DNA of 42,719 nucleotides, from positions 1 through 42,719 of the IMG/VR virus record IMGVR_UViG_3300030838_000405; one strand, 5' to 3'. Below the pieces are notes generated by a model. It was not told where the DNA came from. It did not search any database and worked only from the letters and a program-made list of their open reading frames with translations. Below, in pieces: positions 930 through 42,719 of this stretch. Positions within the stretch are counted from its first letter, which is position 1, and each line of letters starts with the position of its first letter. Source of the DNA: a virus. The position numbers and the translations under genes are program-made.

Positions 930-1223
930 ATGAAAACTATTGAGAGGCAAAACAAAGAATCCCGCATTACTTTGCGCCTGAATAAAACTGAGCTCGACAC
1001 CATGAATGCAAAGATGGCTGAAGCAGGCTACAAGTCCGCAGGCGCGTTCATCAGAGATTTCGTTGCCACTGGACAGGTCAAGCCTAAAGTCGGGCAGGAC
1101 GTCGTCCAGATCGCCCGCGAGCTGATGAGCCTGGCCTCGATGATCAACGCCGACCGCCCAGGCAGCGAGCTCTTGGAAAAGGTGAGGTACATCGCTCAGG
1201 TAAACCTGGGAGGTGTTGCATGA
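930..1223 (+). CDS. MobC-like mobilisation accessory protein
   Basis: This 97-residue protein begins with a basic segment containing RITLRLNKTELDTMNAKM. That is the ribbon-helix-helix-like start typical of MobC proteins, followed by a helix containing AGYKSAGAFIRDFV. In mobilisable plasmids MobC binds oriT and helps the relaxase open the DNA. Its stop overlaps the relaxase start by ATGA, so the two are translationally coupled. The ribosome-binding site is weak. The family call rests on sequence pattern plus neighbourhood. The C-terminal part (ELMSLASMINADRPGSELL) is less typical. Confidence 0.8.
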   Translation: MKTIERQNKESRITLRLNKTELDTMNAKMAEAGYKSAGAFIRDFVATGQVKPKVGQDVVQIARELMSLASMINADRPGSELLEKVRYIAQVNLGGVA

Positions 1224-2374
1224 TTGGCAAGATCTTTCCCAAGTCAGCAGGCTCTTTCAGGAACCGAATTCGGTACATATTTGGCTGCACCAAGCACGAC
1301 CATGAAATCTCCAGCATCCGGACGATCAGCCACAACACAATGAGCAAAGACCCCCTGCCGGGAGTGCTACAGGGAAACGAAGCAGACCTCACTGATATGA
1401 TCAAGGAGTTCGACCAGGTGGAGACCCTCAGGCGCTTCGCTATCGACTCTGATAAGCCCATCAAACCCGTCTTTCATGCGATGCTGTCGCTGCGCCCCGG
1501 AGAGTCCCTGACAACCCCGCAATGGCGTCAGGCGGTCACGAAGTACATGACAGACCTAGGCTTCGACGAAACGACTCAGTATGTCGCTGTAATGCACCAA
1601 GACAAAGATCACCAGCACGTCCACATCGTAGCGAACCGCATTAGGCTTAATGACGAATTCAGCATGGTAAAAGACAGCAATGAGCGAAGCATCAGCCTTG
1701 AGTCAGTGTCCAGCATCGAAGACCGCTTCAACCTGTCGAAAGCACCGAAGCCAAAGGACACATGGGGCGTCTCGATCACTCACGCAGAGCTCCAAGCTTC
1801 CATCCGCGACAATGATCTACCTCTGAAGCACAAGATGATCGCAAAGATCGCGGGCGCTATCGAAGCCACGAACGCCGTCGACGGCGATATGTTCACGTTC
1901 ACCCGACTACTGAGAAGGCAGAAGGTCTACATCAACCTCTCCCTGAACGATGAGGGCCAGCCCAAAGGCATCAGCTTCGAGTTTGACGGCAAACACATCA
2001 GTGGCAGGCAGCTCAAACGCTCAAGGTTGACGTGGCACAAACTAATTACACAAGAAGGAATTAACTATGACCCAGAAACCATTTCAGAACTTCAGAACGA
2101 GATTGCAAGAAGAGATCGCGAGGAGCAAGAAAGAGCTCGAATCTACTACTATGAATTCATCGCAGTCAGCGGTCGCAGAAGAAAGCCTGTCTACGTCAGA
2201 TTCACGGCAAAAGACTACGAAGTTCAGAAATTGATTCAGGAGATTCTTGAGCTGCTAGATGCGATATTTGATGCTCTGTTCAAGCCGAAAGAGTGCAGAC
2301 TGAAGCGCAACTACATTGAGTTTACTCCGGGTGCACCATTAATTATTCCAGAAGAAGATGAGCTTACGCTTTGA
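1220..2374 (+). CDS. MOBP-type relaxase (mobilisation nuclease)
   Basis: This 384-residue protein is expected to nick one strand at oriT, stay linked to the 5' end through a tyrosine and pilot the strand into the recipient. The key evidence is HQDKDHQHVHIVANRI at about residues 133-148, the HxDxxHxHxHhxxN metal-binding motif III of MOBP/VirD2-type relaxases. The N-terminal FPKSAGSFRNRIRYIFG places a likely catalytic tyrosine at residue 19. The length is modest: it is a relaxase domain plus a basic and acidic C-terminal tail, with no primase or helicase domain. No coupling protein or mating-pair genes are seen, so transfer would need a helper conjugation system. Its 3' end overlaps the convergent exonuclease gene by 11 bp. 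Confidence 0.9.
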   Translation: MIGKIFPKSAGSFRNRIRYIFGCTKHDHEISSIRTISHNTMSKDPLPGVLQGNEADLTDMIKEFDQVETLRRFAIDSDKPIKPVFHAMLSLRPGESLTTPQWRQAVTKYMTDLGFDETTQYVAVMHQDKDHQHVHIVANRIRLNDEFSMVKDSNERSISLESVSSIEDRFNLSKAPKPKDTWGVSITHAELQASIRDNDLPLKHKMIAKIAGAIEATNAVDGDMFTFTRLLRRQKVYINLSLNDEGQPKGISFEFDGKHISGRQLKRSRLTWHKLITQEGINYDPETISELQNEIARRDREEQERARIYYYEFIAVSGRRRKPVYVRFTAKDYEVQKLIQEILELLDAIFDALFKPKECRLKRNYIEFTPGAPLIIPEEDELTL

Positions 2375-4530: not shown

Positions 4531-4965
4531 ATGCCTCAACTGCACGCTTGAGAGACGCATAATTTCAGCCACTGAATAGACCTTGCGGCGCACCAGCGTC
4601 TTCGCGAGGTCGTATGCGTCCATGTCACCTCCAATGCTGCCTACGGCGCCCATAAGAGCCAACTGGTCATACTCCGATAGCTGAGCCTCACCCAATGCTT
4701 GCTCGGCCTCCGCCTTAGCCAGCTTCGCTCGAACTTCTATATCCAGTTCATCCGCTCGCCTTTCTGCACGATTTGAAAGTGCGCGTAAGCCGGCTTCGCC
4801 GAACACTTCGATTACATCAAGAGTAATATCAATCAACTCCTGAAATTCCTGTGCATCATCATGCTCATATGAAAGCCCGCACCCACAATCTTCTCTATGC
4901 AAATCACCACTTTTAATAAGTGCGTCAGCGATAGCCTGGTGATTAACTGAAATCTTGATACCCAT
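4519..4965 (-). CDS. Hypothetical protein
   Basis: I chose the ATG at 4965 because AGGA lies about eight bases upstream. A longer frame starting at 5040 lacks a ribosome-binding site. The 148-residue product is acidic, with a short cysteine-containing segment EDCGCGLSYEH and a long charged helical region (about residues 55-100, including AKLAKAEAEQALGEAQL). I do not recognise the family. It is encoded opposite to its neighbours, so it is an independent unit. Confidence 0.6.
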   Translation of the reverse strand: MGIKISVNHQAIADALIKSGDLHREDCGCGLSYEHDDAQEFQELIDITLDVIEVFGEAGLRALSNRAERRADELDIEVRAKLAKAEAEQALGEAQLSEYDQLALMGAVGSIGGDMDAYDLAKTLVRRKVYSVAEIMRLSSVQLRHLLS

Positions 4966-5083
4966 TATTATTTTCCTTTTTGGCTGGGACTTATAAACAT
5001 AATATTGAATTGGACTCGCCCACTCAATAAATAAATGCAATCTATATGAAGGTAGTTTGATGTCAAATAGCCCGCCGACGCTA

Positions 5084-5111
5084 TTGCACTGCCTGGAACC
5101 CCTTATATAAT
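5084..5111 (+). promoter_or_regulatory. Sigma70-type promoter for the 5141-7177 membrane operon
   Basis: TTGCAC at 5084-5089 and a perfect TATAAT at 5106-5111 are separated by 16 bp, 29 bp upstream of the ATG at 5141. A GGAGC ribosome-binding site lies between them and the start. This is one of the best promoter matches in the window. Confidence 0.7.
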
Positions 5112-5140
5112 GGGCTTATACAGAGATTTCGGAGCTCAAG

Positions 5141-6121
5141 ATGAGCAAAAAGCTGTCGGCATTACTTGTCGCAATCGCATTCCTTTTGTCTAGCGTAACT
5201 GCAATTTCTGTTGCGCTTGCAATGTACGCATTGATTGAAGACAAGAACCTGGCGCTTCTTTTTGCGTCTGCAGCCGTGCTTCTGGATATTTTCAAGTATC
5301 TGGCGTGGCCTGTTGCCATTCGTGTTTTGCGTGGCACAAGTGCAGTGCTGACAATTGCATGCGCCCTGATGCTTTCGGGTGTTAGCGGTTGGGCCACTTA
5401 TGATCGACTCATGACTTCGATTAGCGTCAGCAAAGCAACTCACGAAGTAATGACTACTGACCGTGTTAGTGCATTGATTGCCATGGCTCAGAAAGACTCA
5501 GCACTGATCTCACAGCTTGATAAAGAGATCGCCGATGCGGGGTTACAGGCTAATGATCTGCGTGCGCGTGGAATGGTTTCCAAGGCCTTGGAGCTTGAAG
5601 AGTCAGTAAGCTCTCGTGCGTCAGCTCAGCGCGCTCAGGCACTAGCACGCCTTAATGAAGGCTCCCTGGAGATCGCGCACATCAAATCTGGTGTTGCTAA
5701 AGCGTCGAGCCTGCCTCCGCTGCTTGCGCAGTTTCTGTGCCTCGGCTTCGCAATGTCCCTGGAGATAGTTCCGGCACTCATCCTAGCTGGCGTCAGAAGC
5801 TCTGGACGCTCTAGCACGGGTGTTGTAGCCTCAGCGGCTAGCGAAACGCCATCATCGGAAGTTAAGGTGACTGGCATGCCAGAGGGAGTGACAGAAACGC
5901 CAGAAACCGTGAAAAACCCAGAAACCCTGCTCGACTCGAACGCAGAAATCCTGAAAACCCTGGTTGTTCACGCAAAAACTCTGGAACCCGGCACCCCCGT
6001 TCGGCTCAAGGTTTTTGCGAAAAACGCCAGAATCGGGAACCTCCGAGCTGGTGAGATTTTCAGGAACGCAGAGGGTTTGGGCGTTATTAGAAAAACCACA
6101 ATTGGGTATGTAACTGCGTAG
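5141..6121 (+). CDS. Multi-span membrane protein with central coiled coil, unknown function
   Basis: This 326-residue protein has three N-terminal hydrophobic segments (about residues 6-31, 36-60 and 66-86). A charged, probably coiled-coil stretch follows (about 100-180), then a fourth hydrophobic segment (about 193-220). A soluble tail rich in P, E and T leads into a small basic domain (about 280-326, containing KVFAKNARIGNLRAGEIF). Its job is not recognised. Similar shapes occur in plasmid-borne membrane proteins near mob genes. It opens a three-gene set behind a clear promoter. A role in mobilisation or exclusion is possible but unsupported. Confidence 0.7.
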   Translation: MSKKLSALLVAIAFLLSSVTAISVALAMYALIEDKNLALLFASAAVLLDIFKYLAWPVAIRVLRGTSAVLTIACALMLSGVSGWATYDRLMTSISVSKATHEVMTTDRVSALIAMAQKDSALISQLDKEIADAGLQANDLRARGMVSKALELEESVSSRASAQRAQALARLNEGSLEIAHIKSGVAKASSLPPLLAQFLCLGFAMSLEIVPALILAGVRSSGRSSTGVVASAASETPSSEVKVTGMPEGVTETPETVKNPETLLDSNAEILKTLVVHAKTLEPGTPVRLKVFAKNARIGNLRAGEIFRNAEGLGVIRKTTIGYVTA

Positions 6122-32724: not shown

Positions 32725-33204
32725 TTAGCTCTGAGTCGAAAGCCATCGCTCAGCACGATCAAGTTTTCCGACCTCACGAAGCCCAGAACTGCCAACCGCC
32801 AGCAGTTCAAGGAAGCGCTGCCGATCTTCATCAGCTGGAAACCAGTCCGCTATCTCCACGCTGCAATGCTGAGACTCGCTCAGAGCCCATCTAGCAACTA
32901 GATCCGCTGCGGCCCTAAAGTGATCGGCCATCCAGACAGCATTTCCTTCAGCATGCCACCCACGCTCAGCTAACAGCTTGGTTGAATCCAAGATCCCTGC
33001 GTCACCAAAGAACGCCGTCGTGTCTGGAAAATGAATCCCCGCGAGCGACACTTTGCACACTCCTGACTCACGATCCCAGTACGCCAAAACATGCCACCCA
33101 CCAGTGGTCACGCCCGGAAATGGGAAATTGATCGCAGCTTTACCGGTGATGTAGTGCTCACGGGTAACACGCGAAAGGTCGAGGTCGAACAGTGGCTGGG
33201 TCAT
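32725..33204 (-). CDS. Hypothetical protein
   Basis: This 159-residue protein is compact and soluble (REHYITGKAAINFPFPGVTT, then WHVLAYWDRESGVCKVSLAG), with many W and H residues. It resembles hypothetical proteins I associate with Pseudomonas plasmids and phages, but I cannot name a family. It is convergent with the preceding gene (no gap) and divergent from the DUF4238 gene. GC content is relatively high. Confidence 0.6.
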   Translation of the reverse strand: MTQPLFDLDLSRVTREHYITGKAAINFPFPGVTTGGWHVLAYWDRESGVCKVSLAGIHFPDTTAFFGDAGILDSTKLLAERGWHAEGNAVWMADHFRAAADLVARWALSESQHCSVEIADWFPADEDRQRFLELLAVGSSGLREVGKLDRAERWLSTQS

Positions 33205-33296
33205 CCGGGCAACCTACCATCGAGCCCACCCCCAGGCAACGCTGTTTGACTCCAAACCGGGCCGCAGACAAGATGCCTTCAGGACAAGGAGCGAAG

Positions 33297-34223
33297 ATGG
33301 ACATCAAACGTGGCAATCACTACATCTGGGCGCATTACCTTCGTGGTTGGTCACATAACCAGAGGGATGTCTTTCATCGAACAAAGAAGGGCAACATCCA
33401 AGCCGTGAGCACCAAAGGGCTTGGTCGTGAATATGAGTTCTACAAGCTGACTCCGCTAGACAATATCGATGTCGAGTTTCTTGAATATTGGATAAGCCAA
33501 TGTACTCCTGCGACACGGCCACTCCATTATGGTTTTCTAAAGAGGATGATCGTCTATTCATGCCTTCTTGGCGTGCTTGATCCAATCAAAGATAAAGCAA
33601 AGCGCGATGAGATCACTTTCAACACAATCGAAGAACTACACACGACGATTGAAAATGACGTTAGGCCGACGCTCGACGCATTACGAGCTGGTAATTTTTC
33701 AGCTTTGCATGAAGTAAACGCGTTGAACAACTTGATCAGCTATATGGGCCACCAGTTCTCCCGAACAAAAGTTTTCCGTAACATTGTTGACTCATCGGCT
33801 CGCTCAGATAATCAGGTGATCAACGACCTGATCAAAAAAAACAACTGGTTTATGGCTATCCTCGTAGGAGTCAACATGGGCTACAGCACCGCCATGTACT
33901 ATGAGACAAAAAACGTGGTTTGGCTCATCAACAACACGGATACCCGGTTCATTACGAGTGACAACCCGGTGATCAACGTTCATCCCTCTGTGCTCAATCG
34001 TAAACCTAATGGCATACCACCCTTGCATACAGACCTATATTTCCCCATTTCCCCAACCCTTGCCTACATGGTGAATGACTCAGACAACTGGGGTAATGGC
34101 AAAGTAGAAGCTACCAACGAGACAGTCGTGGCGCTCAATAGACAGATACTCATCAGGTGTGATGAAACCGTGTATGGGGACAGCATGGAAATCATAAAGC
34201 AGACAAAGCTTCCGAAAGCGTAG
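33297..34223 (+). CDS. DUF4238 domain protein
   Basis: I chose the ATG at 33297, six bases after AAGGAG; a longer frame from 33192 adds a proline-rich stretch of low quality. The 308-residue product starts MDIKRGNHYIWAHYLRGWSH, the N-terminal DUF4238 signature. It later has RFITSDNPVINVHPS, the other conserved segment, and PISPTLAYMVN. The biochemical role of DUF4238 is not established. Members are scattered on mobile elements, so toxin or defence roles are plausible. It ends in its own terminator, making it a self-contained cargo unit. Confidence 0.85.
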   Translation: MDIKRGNHYIWAHYLRGWSHNQRDVFHRTKKGNIQAVSTKGLGREYEFYKLTPLDNIDVEFLEYWISQCTPATRPLHYGFLKRMIVYSCLLGVLDPIKDKAKRDEITFNTIEELHTTIENDVRPTLDALRAGNFSALHEVNALNNLISYMGHQFSRTKVFRNIVDSSARSDNQVINDLIKKNNWFMAILVGVNMGYSTAMYYETKNVVWLINNTDTRFITSDNPVINVHPSVLNRKPNGIPPLHTDLYFPISPTLAYMVNDSDNWGNGKVEATNETVVALNRQILIRCDETVYGDSMEIIKQTKLPKA

Positions 34224-36126: not shown

Positions 36127-37365
36127 TCAATCGGATGTTGTTGAGTCCGGCTGCTTGAATAATTTCAATCCCTGAAAATACCCCAGGAAATTTTCCCTCA
36201 TAAGATGATTGGGCTCTATATGGCTAATCTGTTCATCAATCCAATGAGCCATAGTTTTCAGGTACTTCAATTTTGACTCTTGATGTTTCTCGTCCGACAG
36301 CCTCAGAAACTTCGGTCGATTATTCTCATCGAAAACTTCATAGCGGTTAGCCCAGAAGAGACCGGCCATGAGTGACGACCTTTTACTTAAATACAACATT
36401 CCGTCGACCATGGCCCCCTTCGTAGCTATGTGCCTTCTTTGGACTAATGCATCAAGAATAAAATGGACTGAGTACGCTTGCACGAACTCACTCCTTATTA
36501 TCGGATTTGGATGCTTTAAATCAGGGATGTCAAAGTTGTCAGGGTATATAACTGCAAATCTTTGGAACATTATCTCCTGAGCGCAAAGCAACATGTAAAT
36601 GCTTGGCACCGAAAGAAGATTTTTTCCGATCATGTATGTTACTGCGAGCCCAACTCCCTCCAGGTCTGCCAATATTTCACGAGCCTGAGACTTAAGAAAG
36701 AAGTTCTCGTCAGTGTCCTTGGAGTGTAGAGCGAGATCATCTTGGGCTTCGCTAATCGACGAGATGTCTTCATCGCCATCAATCACCTGAAGTAGGTAGT
36801 GTCGCTGAATCAAATGGCCTAATTCGTGGCAGAACAGCCAAACAGTCATGAGCTCAAACATTAGAAAGCGCGAGGCCAACATGTCATCAGTCAGCTTCTC
36901 ATGTCTATTTTTGTCATACAAAGGCTTCAATAACTTGAAGAGCTCAGTCTGCTGACTCACGGGAACACGAGGCACGCCTGATTTGAACGTGTAACCTAGA
37001 TTCTTAAAGATTTTGTTAAAGTTGCTAATGGTAGACGAGTCTTCTGCAATTATTTGCGAAATCAATGGAAATACAAAAGCGTCTCTATAAATCTCCCTAA
37101 GCATCCCCACATGCATTCTGATGGTTGGATTCATAGGATCACTGGGTCTCGTGATTGCCCATGCTTCTGCACTCTCCTGAAGCCGGATCTCCAGAGTAAT
37201 GCGACCTTTATATTTCGAGTACACAGTGCTGTTCGCCCATTCCGTAAGTTCCGTAAGAATGGGTGTGGCTATTTTTTCAATATAGTCGAGCGACAGGTTT
37301 TCGTTTTCTTCCCGTATGCTCTTTATCTTTTCTTTTGATATGTGGGGTGGAATCAAGCTAATCAC
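36127..37365 (-). CDS. Zinc metallopeptidase-like protein (HExxH), possible Lit-like exclusion factor
   Basis: This 412-residue protein has FCHELGHLIQRH, with HELGH at residues 180-184, the zinc-binding HExxH motif. About 46 residues later QAREILADLEGV offers the third ligand (E230 or D234). A later HPNPIIRSEF resembles conserved text in Lit/U49-type peptidases. Lit of prophage e14 cleaves EF-Tu and blocks T4, so an anti-phage role is a reasonable hypothesis. Target and activity are unknown. The gene is AT-rich and bounded by terminators on both sides, consistent with recent gain. Confidence 0.72.
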   Translation of the reverse strand: MISLIPPHISKEKIKSIREENENLSLDYIEKIATPILTELTEWANSTVYSKYKGRITLEIRLQESAEAWAITRPSDPMNPTIRMHVGMLREIYRDAFVFPLISQIIAEDSSTISNFNKIFKNLGYTFKSGVPRVPVSQQTELFKLLKPLYDKNRHEKLTDDMLASRFLMFELMTVWLFCHELGHLIQRHYLLQVIDGDEDISSISEAQDDLALHSKDTDENFFLKSQAREILADLEGVGLAVTYMIGKNLLSVPSIYMLLCAQEIMFQRFAVIYPDNFDIPDLKHPNPIIRSEFVQAYSVHFILDALVQRRHIATKGAMVDGMLYLSKRSSLMAGLFWANRYEVFDENNRPKFLRLSDEKHQESKLKYLKTMAHWIDEQISHIEPNHLMRENFLGYFQGLKLFKQPDSTTSD

Positions 37366-37875: not shown

Positions 37876-38247
37876 TTACTTAGCCAACCAGGATTCCACA
37901 GTGTCGGAGCCGTATTCCGATTTCCAATCCTTCAGGATCTTGTGGTTGCCGCCCTTGGTCTCAACGACTTCGCCCGAGTGTGGGTTCTTGTAGATTTTCA
38001 CCTGGCGTGGCTTGCGGGTGCCTGCCTTGGATTCGCTTGCAGCAGGAGCGCGGCGAGTGGAGGCCTGCGGGTCAAGGATGGCGATGACATTGCGCAGGCT
38101 GTAGCCATATTTGGCAAGCAATTCACGAAGCTTGGTCTCGAACTCAACTTCCTTTTTAAGGCCTTCATCGCCTTTCATGGCTTCGAGGGCAGCCAATTGC
38201 TCGGCTAGGTGTTTTTCAAGCTGACGGAATTCTGCAAGACGAGACAT
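37876..38247 (-). CDS. MvaT/TurA-family H-NS-like xenogeneic silencer
   Basis: This 123-residue protein has the MvaT plan: an N-terminal oligomerising coiled coil (about residues 1-55), a linker, and the C-terminal DNA-binding domain. That domain contains RKPRQVKIYKNPHSGEVVE and TKGGNHKILKDWKSEYGSD, with an ending like ESWL. MvaT proteins coat AT-rich DNA and silence it, and can co-polymerise with the host MvaT and MvaU. Copies on plasmids (such as Pmr) help an element enter without upsetting the host. Finding it here points to Pseudomonas. It lies right after the portal gene in the same direction. Confidence 0.93.
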   Translation of the reverse strand: MSRLAEFRQLEKHLAEQLAALEAMKGDEGLKKEVEFETKLRELLAKYGYSLRNVIAILDPQASTRRAPAASESKAGTRKPRQVKIYKNPHSGEVVETKGGNHKILKDWKSEYGSDTVESWLAK

Positions 38248-38284: not shown

Positions 38285-39601
38285 TCATGCCAGCTCAATC
38301 GAGAGACGGTCAGCGTTGTCAGCCAGGCTGAAATTATTCCTGAGCAACCCACGACGCTTGAGCTCTTGGAGATAGTCCTCTTGAGATAGGTCGCCCATTG
38401 TCCTCGCATTAGCCAGTGCAGTGAACTCTTCAGAAGAGGTGTTGATTCCGTACTCGGTGTTGATGTCGACGTGAAAGTCAGGCTCGGAGATCTTGTTGAA
38501 GTACGCAATCCAGCCAAAAACCTTCTCGATTGCCGAAGCCAGGTTCAGTGCCATCATCGCAATTCTGTTGTTGTTCTCTCCGGCGTTCAGGGCTCGCCCG
38601 GTTGCGGTCTCCACGGCCCCGGAGTTCTCAAGAAGATCCGAGCCAAAGGACTGCATTTTGGCTTCAAGGTCTCTTAGCGAATCACGTCCAGAGCCAATCG
38701 CAGCCCCGGAGTGCTCGACATACTTGAGATCAGCATTCACATCACCCTTGATCGCATATTCAGAGCCGATAGCGATCTCAGCATCATCCGCCACCCCGGA
38801 CGCAAACAGGATCGGGCACTTGGCGATCTTCAGGATGTTCGACTGATCCGAAGACTCTTGGAAATGCTGAATATTCATGTAGACCAAGTCTTTGAGCGGT
38901 GGATTCGCAAAAAGCTCGCCACTTGAGATAACAGCAGCTGAATGCACGGCTACCACAGGTATTTCTTTGAGTGCAAACGGCTGGTCAAGGACGATAGCAG
39001 CGTCAGTTCCTTCATCGCCGTCATATAGAGACCAGGTCACAACCTCTCCGTCGCGCTTAAACACCCTGATGCGAGAAACTTCTTTCTCTCCCCATGCTCC
39101 ATCTGCAACGATGGCTTTCTCCTGTATGCGTATTTCGGTGAGCCTGTCATCTTCATCAAGTTTGTAGCCAAGGATGTTATCGCCGCTCAAATGGTATGCA
39201 TAGGGACGACCACCATCAACGGCAGCATCAATCGCAATGAATGACGATCCATTCCACAGTGCGTCCTCGAATGCTGTAGAGCACAATCCATTAAGATTAG
39301 ACCCCTTACCATCTACAGCTTTCATGTATTGATCAGCAAGATCCTGATACTTCTCACTTTTTACAACAATAGGCCTAGTGAAGGGTTTCGATGCCAGATT
39401 TCGAGCGGTTTTGTCTGTGTAATTGGACAGGAATGATCGTGCCAGTCTGCGCTTGTAGGAATCAGCAGTTTCCCCAGGTTCTCTTGGAAGGTATTTTGTT
39501 CCAGCAGCCCGAAGCGTATCGGTGCCACCCCGAACAGCACGAATCATTTCACGGTCTTGATAGTATTTCTGGCAGCGCAGAGTTCTGGTTGAAACGGACA
39601 T
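38285..39601 (-). CDS. Portal protein (DUF4055-type)
   Basis: This 438-residue protein matches DUF4055 portal-like proteins: an N-terminal RAVRGGTDTLRAAGTKYLPR, then ARNLASKPFTRP, a middle HLSGDNILGYKLDED, and a helical C-terminal part (SDLLENSGAVETATGRALNA). It should form the dodecameric ring for DNA entry at one capsid vertex. AAGAGG lies nine bases before the ATG but inside the 3' arm of a 12-bp inverted repeat, which could regulate its translation. In most phages this gene directly follows terL. Here another gene intervenes. Confidence 0.87.
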   Translation of the reverse strand: MSVSTRTLRCQKYYQDREMIRAVRGGTDTLRAAGTKYLPREPGETADSYKRRLARSFLSNYTDKTARNLASKPFTRPIVVKSEKYQDLADQYMKAVDGKGSNLNGLCSTAFEDALWNGSSFIAIDAAVDGGRPYAYHLSGDNILGYKLDEDDRLTEIRIQEKAIVADGAWGEKEVSRIRVFKRDGEVVTWSLYDGDEGTDAAIVLDQPFALKEIPVVAVHSAAVISSGELFANPPLKDLVYMNIQHFQESSDQSNILKIAKCPILFASGVADDAEIAIGSEYAIKGDVNADLKYVEHSGAAIGSGRDSLRDLEAKMQSFGSDLLENSGAVETATGRALNAGENNNRIAMMALNLASAIEKVFGWIAYFNKISEPDFHVDINTEYGINTSSEEFTALANARTMGDLSQEDYLQELKRRGLLRNNFSLADNADRLSIELA

Positions 39602-39607
39602 TTGAAT

Positions 39608-39651
39608 GCCTCTTATAATTAAATATCGAAATATTATACATTATAAGAGGC
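39608..39651. repeat. 12-bp perfect inverted repeat covering the portal ribosome-binding site
   Basis: GCCTCTTATAAT (39608-39619) and ATTATAAGAGGC (39640-39651) are exact reverse complements separated by 20 nt. In the minus-strand mRNA the 3' arm contains AAGAGG, the ribosome-binding site of the portal. A TATAAT on the minus strand lies in the loop region. Confidence 0.8.
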
Positions 39652-39662
39652 TTTATGTTTGA

Positions 39663-41381
39663 CTACGTCGGAATGGGTTCTGGTTCGAATGGTGCGTTAC
39701 TATCTGCATCAAGTTCGACATCGACACGGCGAAATAAAAACTTAGCTTTGTTCTGATCGAAGACGTAGATGGCTGCCAGTGGGATTGCAGTTATCAATAC
39801 ACCAGTAAGCACGTCCGCCACTGAATGGCTGAATAAATTTAAAAGAGGAACGCCCATCAGTGCCTTAGATAAGGTGTTTGCAACATACAATCCTATAACG
39901 GTGGACGCTGCACCAAACAAGACTACTGATATCCTTTCGTATTTATCAGTTGCATCACTGATCATTACACGGACACAGCGCACCGTAGAAAGGGTGCACT
40001 CTCTAATAATCGATAGCACTAGAGCTGGCAACTTGACGAGCATGGAGATAAGTATCTGCGGTATCGCGCTAAGCACACCAGCAACACCACCCTCAATGCC
40101 AGCAGTCTTCGCTTGTTCCATAATTTTTCGCTCTTCAAAACGAGCACTAAGCTTTGCTGACAAACTAATCCTGCGCTCATCCAGTCCTTTGAGCACACCT
40201 TGCTTGTCAGTAATTAGTCCCTTTTGTGTTATGTCCTTGATCTCATCAACAAATATGTCGACGGTTTCAGCGACAATGACGCCAACGACTTGCTGTGCAG
40301 CCATCCTGGCTCCTGCGTCAGCTACAGAGAGGCCTATCTCTTTTAGTGCCTGCATCCGGATTGATGCGAGCTGCTCTTGGGCTTTCTCATATTTTTCAAG
40401 TGCGTCTTTTTCACTGATCGTAACCTCCTTGTTGCTCTCTCCGATGATGAAGGTGATCGTATCTGGATCATTTGGATCGCGGCGACCATAGCGCTCGATA
40501 TAAGCGATCAAGTCTCTGTCGCTCTTAGAGCCGTTCAAGGAGTCATCAGCATAGATTAAGTTTTGTTTGAAATTAATTGCGTCAACAATGCCGTCATCAT
40601 TAGTTGCAATTCGCAACAATAAGTCGTTGTATATCTGCTTTTTGGGGATGATATGTTCAATATCTGTAGACCATGGATCTAAAGTATTGTTGGCACTTGT
40701 GTCGTATCCGTTTGGCAGCCATTGGAACGTATCCCGAGCCTCAACACGTCCATCGTTCATATCTGCGAAATTTTTATGGTCATGCAGGTTATTTTCTTTC
40801 TTGAAGTCCTTATATTCAACAGAGAGGTTGCTATACTTCGCCTCGTTAGCCTTATCCAGCCCAGTCATGACTGGCGCCAAGCAAAAAGAAGCAATTGCTC
40901 GACGTAGTGCTTCCTGTTTAGTTTGCTCAAATATATGATCAACGTCCTGAGGCCTCACAGGAAGCTTGCTTCTGACCTCGGAGATAATTTGGTCTGTATC
41001 TTTGTCAACTTCCATCGTCCGTGAGAAGTATGTGGAGACCTTTTCCGCACTAAAGCTTGCATATCCCTTCATCTTCTGAGATGAACTGTCGTAGAAAGCC
41101 GACGACGAAGCACTGACCTGAAGGTATTTCGCCTTGGTGCCGTCAGAAAGAAGAGATAATTGTTCCTTGCTAGAAACAACAAAGTTGCTATTGGCGGTGG
41201 AGTCAGCAACTTCACACGCCTTATCTTTTGTGACTGAATAGGCATCAGTTACGCCATCTGCGACTCTTTTGGAATAATCGACAGTTTTTTCCTTGGCATC
41301 AACCAGAGCTTCCTTTCCGCTCGATACGGCATCCGAGACAATGTTACTGAGAGACTCAAATTTTCCCTTGAAAAAACTCAT
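39663..41381 (-). CDS. Membrane protein with HNH-like motif, unknown function
   Basis: I chose the ATG at 41381 (GGAG seven bases upstream); the frame extends to 41426. The 572-residue product has three parts. Residues 1-125 are repetitive, amphipathic and helical (KEALVDAKEKTVDYSKRVAD), like LEA or coiled proteins. Residues 235-290 contain TDIEHIIPKK, QNLIYADDSLNGSKSD: an HNH-type nuclease pattern with H243, N274 and K286. Residues 430-542 hold three or four membrane spans. It sits between terL and portal, which are normally adjacent. This suggests cargo, perhaps a membrane-tethered defence or exclusion nuclease. Function unknown. Confidence 0.6.
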   Translation of the reverse strand: MSFFKGKFESLSNIVSDAVSSGKEALVDAKEKTVDYSKRVADGVTDAYSVTKDKACEVADSTANSNFVVSSKEQLSLLSDGTKAKYLQVSASSSAFYDSSSQKMKGYASFSAEKVSTYFSRTMEVDKDTDQIISEVRSKLPVRPQDVDHIFEQTKQEALRRAIASFCLAPVMTGLDKANEAKYSNLSVEYKDFKKENNLHDHKNFADMNDGRVEARDTFQWLPNGYDTSANNTLDPWSTDIEHIIPKKQIYNDLLLRIATNDDGIVDAINFKQNLIYADDSLNGSKSDRDLIAYIERYGRRDPNDPDTITFIIGESNKEVTISEKDALEKYEKAQEQLASIRMQALKEIGLSVADAGARMAAQQVVGVIVAETVDIFVDEIKDITQKGLITDKQGVLKGLDERRISLSAKLSARFEERKIMEQAKTAGIEGGVAGVLSAIPQILISMLVKLPALVLSIIRECTLSTVRCVRVMISDATDKYERISVVLFGAASTVIGLYVANTLSKALMGVPLLNLFSHSVADVLTGVLITAIPLAAIYVFDQNKAKFLFRRVDVELDADSNAPFEPEPIPT

Positions 41382-41445
41382 CCAGTAGCTCCATTTTTCA
41401 TTGAACCAATGGCGGCAGTATGCCATCTACTGAGAATTAATCCAG

Positions 41446-42719
41446 CTAGCGCAAGCCTTCACGCACTACGGTCACCGGTCGCTTCCAGGTCAGCCTGTAG
41501 GCCAACGCATCCCATGCATGGTCATCAGGGCCCTTGCCAACTGCGTCAGGCTGATCTTCGTCTCGATGCAAGTTAGGTAGGGTTTTGAGAGCAAACTTGC
41601 AGGACTTGAAAAAGTAGATATGAGGCTTACTCGGGTCTTGAGTTTTCGTGGCATGAAGCCTGTCGAACATCAACTGGGCCGAGGTCACGCGAGAGCCAGG
41701 GCTTTTGTCGGAGTTTACGAACTCCATGCCAGCGGCTTTGAGCTCCTTTGCGACTGTAGGAGCATTGCCGTGGTCAACCTTGCTGCCGTTGTGGATTTGG
41801 TTGTCTGCCGGGCCCGGCTGCACCTTTGAGTGATTTTTGAGGACGGTTTCCAACAGCTTGTTTTCGCGTGTTTTCAGGCGCTCACCAATCTGTTTAGCGG
41901 ACAAGTAGAGGCCAGCATCTGACTTCGTTTGCTTGCCGGTCTTAGCATCAATCTCAGTACCGTAGTCCTCACCAACCACGATCAGCGACCCCTTTGGCGG
42001 GCAGAATGGCTTTCCATTGATGGTGATTGCTTCGCCGTTGGTTTCGGCGTACCAAAGGCAGCAGAAAGGCGTGGATTGGCCGAAGTCGAACGACCTGTCA
42101 GTTTTCCAGTGTGGCGGGATCTCGAATGGGTCAAGGATCAGGTTCTCTGCAGACCACACTGGGCCGAACATCGCGCTCATGTCGATAGCTTCCCAGTCTC
42201 CATGCAGCCAGGCAGCCTTGAGGGCCGGGTCAGCAATCTGATCCAGGTAGTTAGTGATGTAGCTCTTGCTGATGTAGGTGTTCTCAAAGATCGTGCCGAA
42301 GACAGCACACCGTTGCCGCGAACCGTCTTTGTTGTAGGTGATCTCGCCAGGCCGTTTACCTTCAAGAAAACGCTCGTATACCCACCATTTCCCGGCCCCG
42401 AATGGGTTGGTCGTTGACCTGACCTGCAGAGGCGGCATGTTGGGTTGTCGCTTGGTAGGAATGAAGGCAGTACGCAGGGTCGACATCATCGCTTCATAGA
42501 CGTCAGGGTCGCGCCAGGTTGCCAGCTCGTCCCATCCGATAAAGGCGTACTCGTGCCCGTGGTACTTGTTTTCGTAATCCTCCATATTCTTGATGTGACC
42601 GAAATACAGTACCTCACCGGTGGCGAACGTCCATGAGCATTCAGACTTGTTCCACACGGCATCAGGGAAGATCCTTGGGATGATCTTCCTTGAGGTGGCA
42701 ATGAGGTTGCGGAGTGGCA
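41446..42719 (-). CDS. terL: Terminase large subunit, 5' end beyond the window
   Basis: The reading frame stays open to the window edge, giving 423 visible residues, with the N-terminus and Walker A outside. The Walker B is YAFIGWDELATW, and RSTTNPFGAGKWWVYERF is the usual segment after it. The nuclease domain has RSFDFGQSTPFCCLW (first acidic residue) and DDHAWDALAYRL near the end. The enzyme packages DNA into the prohead through the portal and cuts concatemers. The motor type (cos or pac) cannot be assigned here. A GTG at 42657 is an internal codon, not the start. Confidence 0.92.
   Translation of the reverse strand, partial: PLRNLIATSRKIIPRIFPDAVWNKSECSWTFATGEVLYFGHIKNMEDYENKYHGHEYAFIGWDELATWRDPDVYEAMMSTLRTAFIPTKRQPNMPPLQVRSTTNPFGAGKWWVYERFLEGKRPGEITYNKDGSRQRCAVFGTIFENTYISKSYITNYLDQIADPALKAAWLHGDWEAIDMSAMFGPVWSAENLILDPFEIPPHWKTDRSFDFGQSTPFCCLWYAETNGEAITINGKPFCPPKGSLIVVGEDYGTEIDAKTGKQTKSDAGLYLSAKQIGERLKTRENKLLETVLKNHSKVQPGPADNQIHNGSKVDHGNAPTVAKELKAAGMEFVNSDKSPGSRVTSAQLMFDRLHATKTQDPSKPHIYFFKSCKFALKTLPNLHRDEDQPDAVGKGPDDHAWDALAYRLTWKRPVTVVREGLR

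Follow-up and report, generated by a model that had tools for sequence, protein, structure and literature searches.

SNIPE is a membrane-bound GIY-YIG nuclease that acts on DNA entering the cell at the membrane (PMC13190303). GmrSD and BrxU are type IV restriction enzymes of the DUF262-DUF1524 kind, with an HNH domain at the C-terminus. Superinfection-exclusion morons of the HK97 gp15 type are accessory membrane protein genes located among phage late genes, gp15 itself being a small membrane protein without a nuclease motif. PDC-M40, a PADLOC candidate, is a three-gene set made up of an SMI1/KNR4-like gene (A), a B gene and a coiled-coil gene (C), and a literature search for PDC-M40 found no paper naming it.

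We analysed a viral DNA of 42,719 nucleotides (the whole stretch is hereafter the window) whose minus strand encodes, at 39663-41381 and adjoining the terL and portal genes, a protein of 572 aa. This gene is a single-gene variant within a known but uncharacterised PDC-M40B-like family. The homology with PDC-M40B covers the HNH region and the membrane part, but the window gene differs from PDC-M40 in having no adjacent A or C gene and in carrying an N-terminal extension. It resembles SNIPE in plan, as a single gene for a protein with a predicted membrane anchor and a putative nuclease domain, the location of which could spare the chromosome; however, SNIPE combines GIY-YIG, DUF4041 and one N-terminal span, whereas the window protein combines an HNH-like motif with a predicted C-terminal multi-span anchor, has no Pfam match to GIY-YIG or DUF4041, and shares no detected sequence with SNIPE. 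With GmrSD and BrxU it has in common the H-N-N register of the HNH domain, yet it lacks DUF262, is predicted to be membrane-bound, and scores under the cut-off of Pfam GmrSD_C. Like the gp15-type morons, it is an accessory membrane protein gene among phage late genes.

An accessory gene between terL and portal

An earlier note on this DNA had placed the gene at these coordinates between terL and portal, and both were correct (TerL and portal match phrog_2 and phrog_145); the amphipathic N-terminus, HNH-like motif and C-terminal spans that it had described were all present in the product. The minus-strand frame is open from 41426 and ends at 39663, with the ATG at 41381 as the best start, since GGAG stands 7 bases upstream and the MSFFKGKF start is conserved in homologues. 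The features are as follows.

41446-42717, minus strand: flanking terL gene, cut by the window end (phrog_2, E 2.9e-25)
41389-41392, minus strand: GGAG tetranucleotide resembling a ribosome-binding site, 7 nt before the ATG (sequence)
39663-41381, minus strand: complete gene, 572 aa, with amphipathic N-terminus, HNH-like centre and C-terminal membrane spans (ORF, start choice, full-length homologues)
41010-41381, minus strand: residues 1-124, amphipathic helical N-terminal extension confined to the window's clade and similar to the amphipathic repeat in the c3 partners described below (profile comparisons)
40716-41009, minus strand: residues 125-222, conserved region preceding the HNH, with F166, L168 and the invariant D176 (alignment)
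40482-40715, minus strand: residues 223-300, HNH-like (DUF1524/GmrSD_C-like) motif region with Y226, H243, N274, N283 and K286 (alignment, profiles)
40653-40655, minus strand: codon of H243, the predicted catalytic histidine (invariant in 37/37)
40002-40058, minus strand: predicted membrane span 1, residues 442-460 (hydrophobicity)
39876-39932, minus strand: predicted membrane span 2, residues 484-502 (hydrophobicity)
39759-39815, minus strand: predicted membrane span 3, residues 523-541 (hydrophobicity)
39608-39651, no strand: 12-bp perfect inverted repeat GCCTCTTATAAT / ATTATAAGAGGC between the gene stop and the portal start, a hairpin without a T run
38285-39601, minus strand: flanking portal gene (phrog_145, E 1.8e-94; DUF4055)

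Purifying selection on the frame was strong (pS 0.83-0.88 against pN 0.19-0.23), indicating a real gene. Its G+C content was 45%, against 54% and 50% in the neighbouring genes. A search for a promoter-like site on the strand of the gene found none, so that it may be transcribed only together with the late genes, which would fit poorly with exclusion at the lysogen stage. The inverted repeat is a possible operator, or an mRNA hairpin overlapping the portal leader.

Comparison with the closest phages showed that the gene is accessory cargo, probably mobile and moron-like. In L079 (TerL 93% and portal 96% identical) and L080 (portal 81%), terL runs straight to portal across a gap of 68-69 nt; in L081 (portal 83%) a different, small gene of 65 aa lies between them on the opposite strand; and no homologue of the 572-aa gene was found elsewhere in these three records. 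The L081 gene, together with the DNA ligase gene that precedes portal in a Pamexvirus, indicates that this junction accepts cargo. As L079, so close in both flanks, lacks the gene, a requirement in virion assembly is unlikely. The earlier note had proposed a membrane-tethered nuclease suited to cutting incoming DNA or to an abortive response. A membrane-tethered HNH protein that the phage carries as cargo, and that the virion probably does not need, gained support from L079, from the invariance of the motif and from homologues lying among defence genes; either of the two putative activities would agree with all the evidence.

Other genes of the window were also recorded. At 37876-38247 (minus strand) the phage encodes an MvaT-type xenogeneic silencer (PF22055, E 1.2e-23), likewise found after portal in L081; this silencer and the nearest cellular relatives point to a Pseudomonas host. 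The gene at 33192-34223 (plus strand) encodes a DUF4238 protein (E 2.6e-18) with a 52% identical copy in L079, and is possibly a further accessory gene. Probable further cargo is the gene at 36127-37365 (minus strand, G+C 43%), the 412-aa product of which shows a zinc-peptidase-like motif (FCHELGHLIQRH) and matched no family; a weak match to PtuB (E 0.0095) was treated as chance. Finally, 930-2374 (plus strand) contains two mobilisation genes, a small one for a MobC-like protein of 97 aa and, after it, one for a MobA/VirD2 relaxase (PF03432, E 6e-22). Relatives of the relaxase in the phage collection were few and distant, and a phage with head and tail genes plus a relaxase is possibly a mobilisable phage-plasmid.

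The HNH-like motif and the membrane part

The stretch DIEHIIPKK...NLIYADDSLNGSK aligned with GmrSD_C/DUF1524 HNH domains in H-N-N register, and H243, N274, N283, D176, Y226, G367, G435 and R460 were invariant in 37/37 aligned homologues, E461 being near-invariant. When the HNH-region profile was compared with GmrSD_C domains from Pseudomonas genomes, hhalign scores of 22-30 were obtained in the same H-N-N register, against 8-11 for column-shuffled controls. The best PDB match was BrxU (7p9k), again in register, at an E of only 0.52. Against Pfam GmrSD_C the window protein reached 11.1 bits and its best sister (L050) 18.9 bits, both under the gathering cut-off of 23. AlphaFold models had low confidence, with a pLDDT of 39 for the full protein (alignment of only 3 rows) and 48 for residues 123-350 (alignment of only 4 rows). 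Taken from the motif and from weak profile scores, these data support a putative HNH-type site of the DUF1524 kind.

The three hydrophobic spans of the C-terminal part were confident, and this part is under the strongest purifying selection of the protein (pN 0.08-0.12 versus 0.13-0.34 in the other parts). Such constraint, together with the invariant G367, G435 and R460 and the near-invariant E461, suggests that the membrane part has a role beyond anchoring. At the other end, the N-terminal region is amphipathic and has no proline until residue 140, with a mean helical moment that only mildly exceeded that of shuffled sequences (p about 0.045).

A single-gene branch of the family

Homologues were mainly cellular or plasmid-borne. 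The nearest came from Pseudomonas brassicae (72% identity), genome G376 (67%), Pseudomonas sp. (66%) and a Cupriavidus megaplasmid (50%), and distant ones, at about 20%, from Klebsiella, E. coli, Variovorax, Photobacterium and Clostridioides plasmids. Across all model libraries PDC-M40B (PDLC04630, E 1.3e-19) came closest, and it matched residues 181-531 over most of its length (75-427 of 547). The earlier note had known of no named family with this order of parts. This holds for the three parts together, as the PDC-M40B relatives are without the N-terminal part, but not for the order HNH-then-membrane, for which those relatives are already modelled as PDC-M40B. A search with this model found a family member in 25 of 398 Pseudomonas genomes; across the phylum the family was rare (6/398, counting the already known G001 and one weak partial match).

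A maximum-likelihood tree of 37 members, rooted by midpoint only, separated the window's clade of seven (100/100, long stem) from thirty others, and the window protein branched outside the partner-bearing B proteins of PDC-M40. Nearly all of the thirty adjoin a same-strand partner gene, with neighbours called by a simple script and a few of them perhaps misread. The partners were of several types: c1, a membrane hairpin plus helices, often accompanied by a YkgJ-like cysteine-cluster gene; c3, which has an amphipathic repeat, a membrane segment or both, and whose C-terminal domain marginally resembles TerB/DUF533; c6 plus c7, which are PDC-M40A and C; and c8, a coiled coil with a C-terminal span. 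No conserved partner or neighbour gene was found beside the clade of seven; a membrane protein gene follows on the same strand in L051 alone, and A (SMI1/KNR4-like) and C (coiled-coil) genes were absent beside the sisters L009, L010, L002, L050 and L054. In one c1-type upstream partner (L007:4686-5771) a hydrophobic segment was weakly like TMP_N, the N-terminal domain of tape measure proteins (E 7e-4, under the cut-off), which is a lead toward possible mimicry of injection proteins.

The two branches also differ in the length preceding F166, about 140-175 residues in the window's clade versus mostly 25-120 in the others, and the additional N-terminal sequence resembled a partner. The repeat reads VSDAYGSTRDTVSEAADKV in c3 partners, VTDAYSVTKDKACEVADST in the window protein and ASELYDSTREKVGEVVEST in a sister. 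By hhalign, the N-terminal profile matched the c3 partners with a probability of 89% (E 2.2e-6, score 48.6); no shuffle or other partner type scored above 16, and the reversed profile scored 28.6. Searched against 2830 ORFs, it recovered, after its own members, exactly the five repeat-bearing c3 partners (E 1.7e-5 to 5.5e-3), the next match standing at 0.28. A search of eight whole genomes placed the partner as best match in 3 of 4 partner-bearing genomes at weak E values (0.013 to 1), and 1 of 4 control genomes gave a match at 0.37. As sources of the N-terminus, c1, c7 and c8 were rejected, there being no similarity (scores 12-16). Since the window's clade stands alone with an N-terminal extension that resembles a partner repeat, these comparisons suggest fusion of, or descent from, the c3 repeat, by which a two-gene system may have become one gene; amphipathic repeats can converge, and convergence could also produce the likeness.

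No homologue of the 572-aa protein was found in the annotated phage collection, and scans of viral contigs found no window-clade member in other viruses and one relative from the partner-bearing clade. The latter is a c3-type pair directly 3' of a tail-chaperone-like gene, on a contig (L093) whose head and tail genes were recognised by eye. The partner (4682-5650) is built of numerous amphipathic SDAYGSTRDTVSEAADKV-like repeats and has a C-terminal region marginally like TerB/DUF533, and the HNH protein gene begins at 5662 and is cut by the contig end. At least two different, unrelated phages therefore appear to carry family members within late structural operons.

Several of the closest cellular relatives lie near defence genes. 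Near L002 are a ThsB-like TIR protein (E 1.6e-63), homologues of PDC-S06 and PDC-S20, and a gene annotated as AbiEi; an LmuA-like MBL protein plus a caspase lie near L010; L050 adjoins a PtuA-like ATPase; and L054 shares an island with an integrase-like gene and an AlpA-like regulator. We report this proximity as an association.

Proposed exclusion of incoming DNA and competing explanations

Our best reading, to which we give an even chance on the basis of sequence comparisons, is a mobile accessory gene for a membrane-tethered HNH-motif nuclease that would restrict incoming DNA. Since the family is found chiefly on plasmids and in the defence islands of bacteria, the gene probably helps the infected cell to exclude rival DNA. 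The product would sit in the inner membrane and bear an HNH-type nuclease motif, as a member of the single-gene branch of the PDC-M40B-like family. Its N-terminal amphipathic repeat would lie along the membrane or bind proteins, acting in cis as the equivalent of the partner repeat in trans, and the HNH domain would nick or cut DNA entering at the membrane, be it a competing phage genome or a mobile element. The incoming DNA would be excluded and the chromosome spared by location; for such a mode of action by a nuclease at the membrane, SNIPE is the precedent (PMC13190303). That the protein is an active nuclease, how it lies in the membrane, what it targets, what triggers it and how the phage benefits are all inferred. 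A more specific version, which we hold tentatively, is a one-gene SNIPE-like membrane HNH nuclease in which the partner repeat was fused to the HNH-membrane subunit, phages, plasmids and islands having spread the gene, and phages using it from their late operons to destroy entering rival DNA.

Rather less probable, though a serious competitor, is an abortive-infection effector in which the membrane bundle, on sensing infection or a disturbed membrane, frees or activates the HNH domain, or in which the bundle itself leaks, leading to cell death. The constraint on the membrane part and its conserved glycines, arginine and glutamate keep such a sensor-triggered model alive, and the separate coiled-coil or TerB-like partners of many relatives could be sensors; but for the phage, a toxin made from a late operon without a companion gene would be a hazard, and no conserved immunity or antitoxin gene adjoins the members of the window's clade. 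It is improbable that the gene excludes conjugating or mobilised plasmids and not phages, on behalf of a phage that itself carries mobilisation genes: the relaxase gene following the small MobC-like gene, and the many family members on plasmids, speak for this, but the family is also common on chromosomes.

Two readings that start from the position of the gene received low weight, the sister phages being without the gene and the protein having membrane spans. Phage HNH proteins encoded beside terminase genes are known to assist packaging, and the gene adjoins terL, but a packaging-associated protein of the HK97 gp74 kind aiding the terminase is very doubtful, given its absence from the closest phages (L079, L080 and L081), the membrane spans and long helical N-terminus, and homologues that lie on chromosomes and plasmids, apart from packaging genes. 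Least probable of all is a homing endonuclease self-inserted at the terL-portal junction, where the HNH motif and the precise intergenic insertion at a common location of homing genes are outweighed by the three membrane spans, by the cellular homologues found in defence islands and by the operon partners that most family members have.

Should the protein indeed cut DNA as it comes in at the membrane, HNH would become, next to the GIY-YIG of SNIPE, a nuclease type that discriminates self from non-self by location, and if the fused-repeat HNH reading is true it would supply a second, unrelated nuclease fold for defence at the site of injection. The three-gene PADLOC candidate family would then gain a simple one-gene representative, testable by moving one gene, and the carriage of this family in phage late operons would bear on competition between phages.
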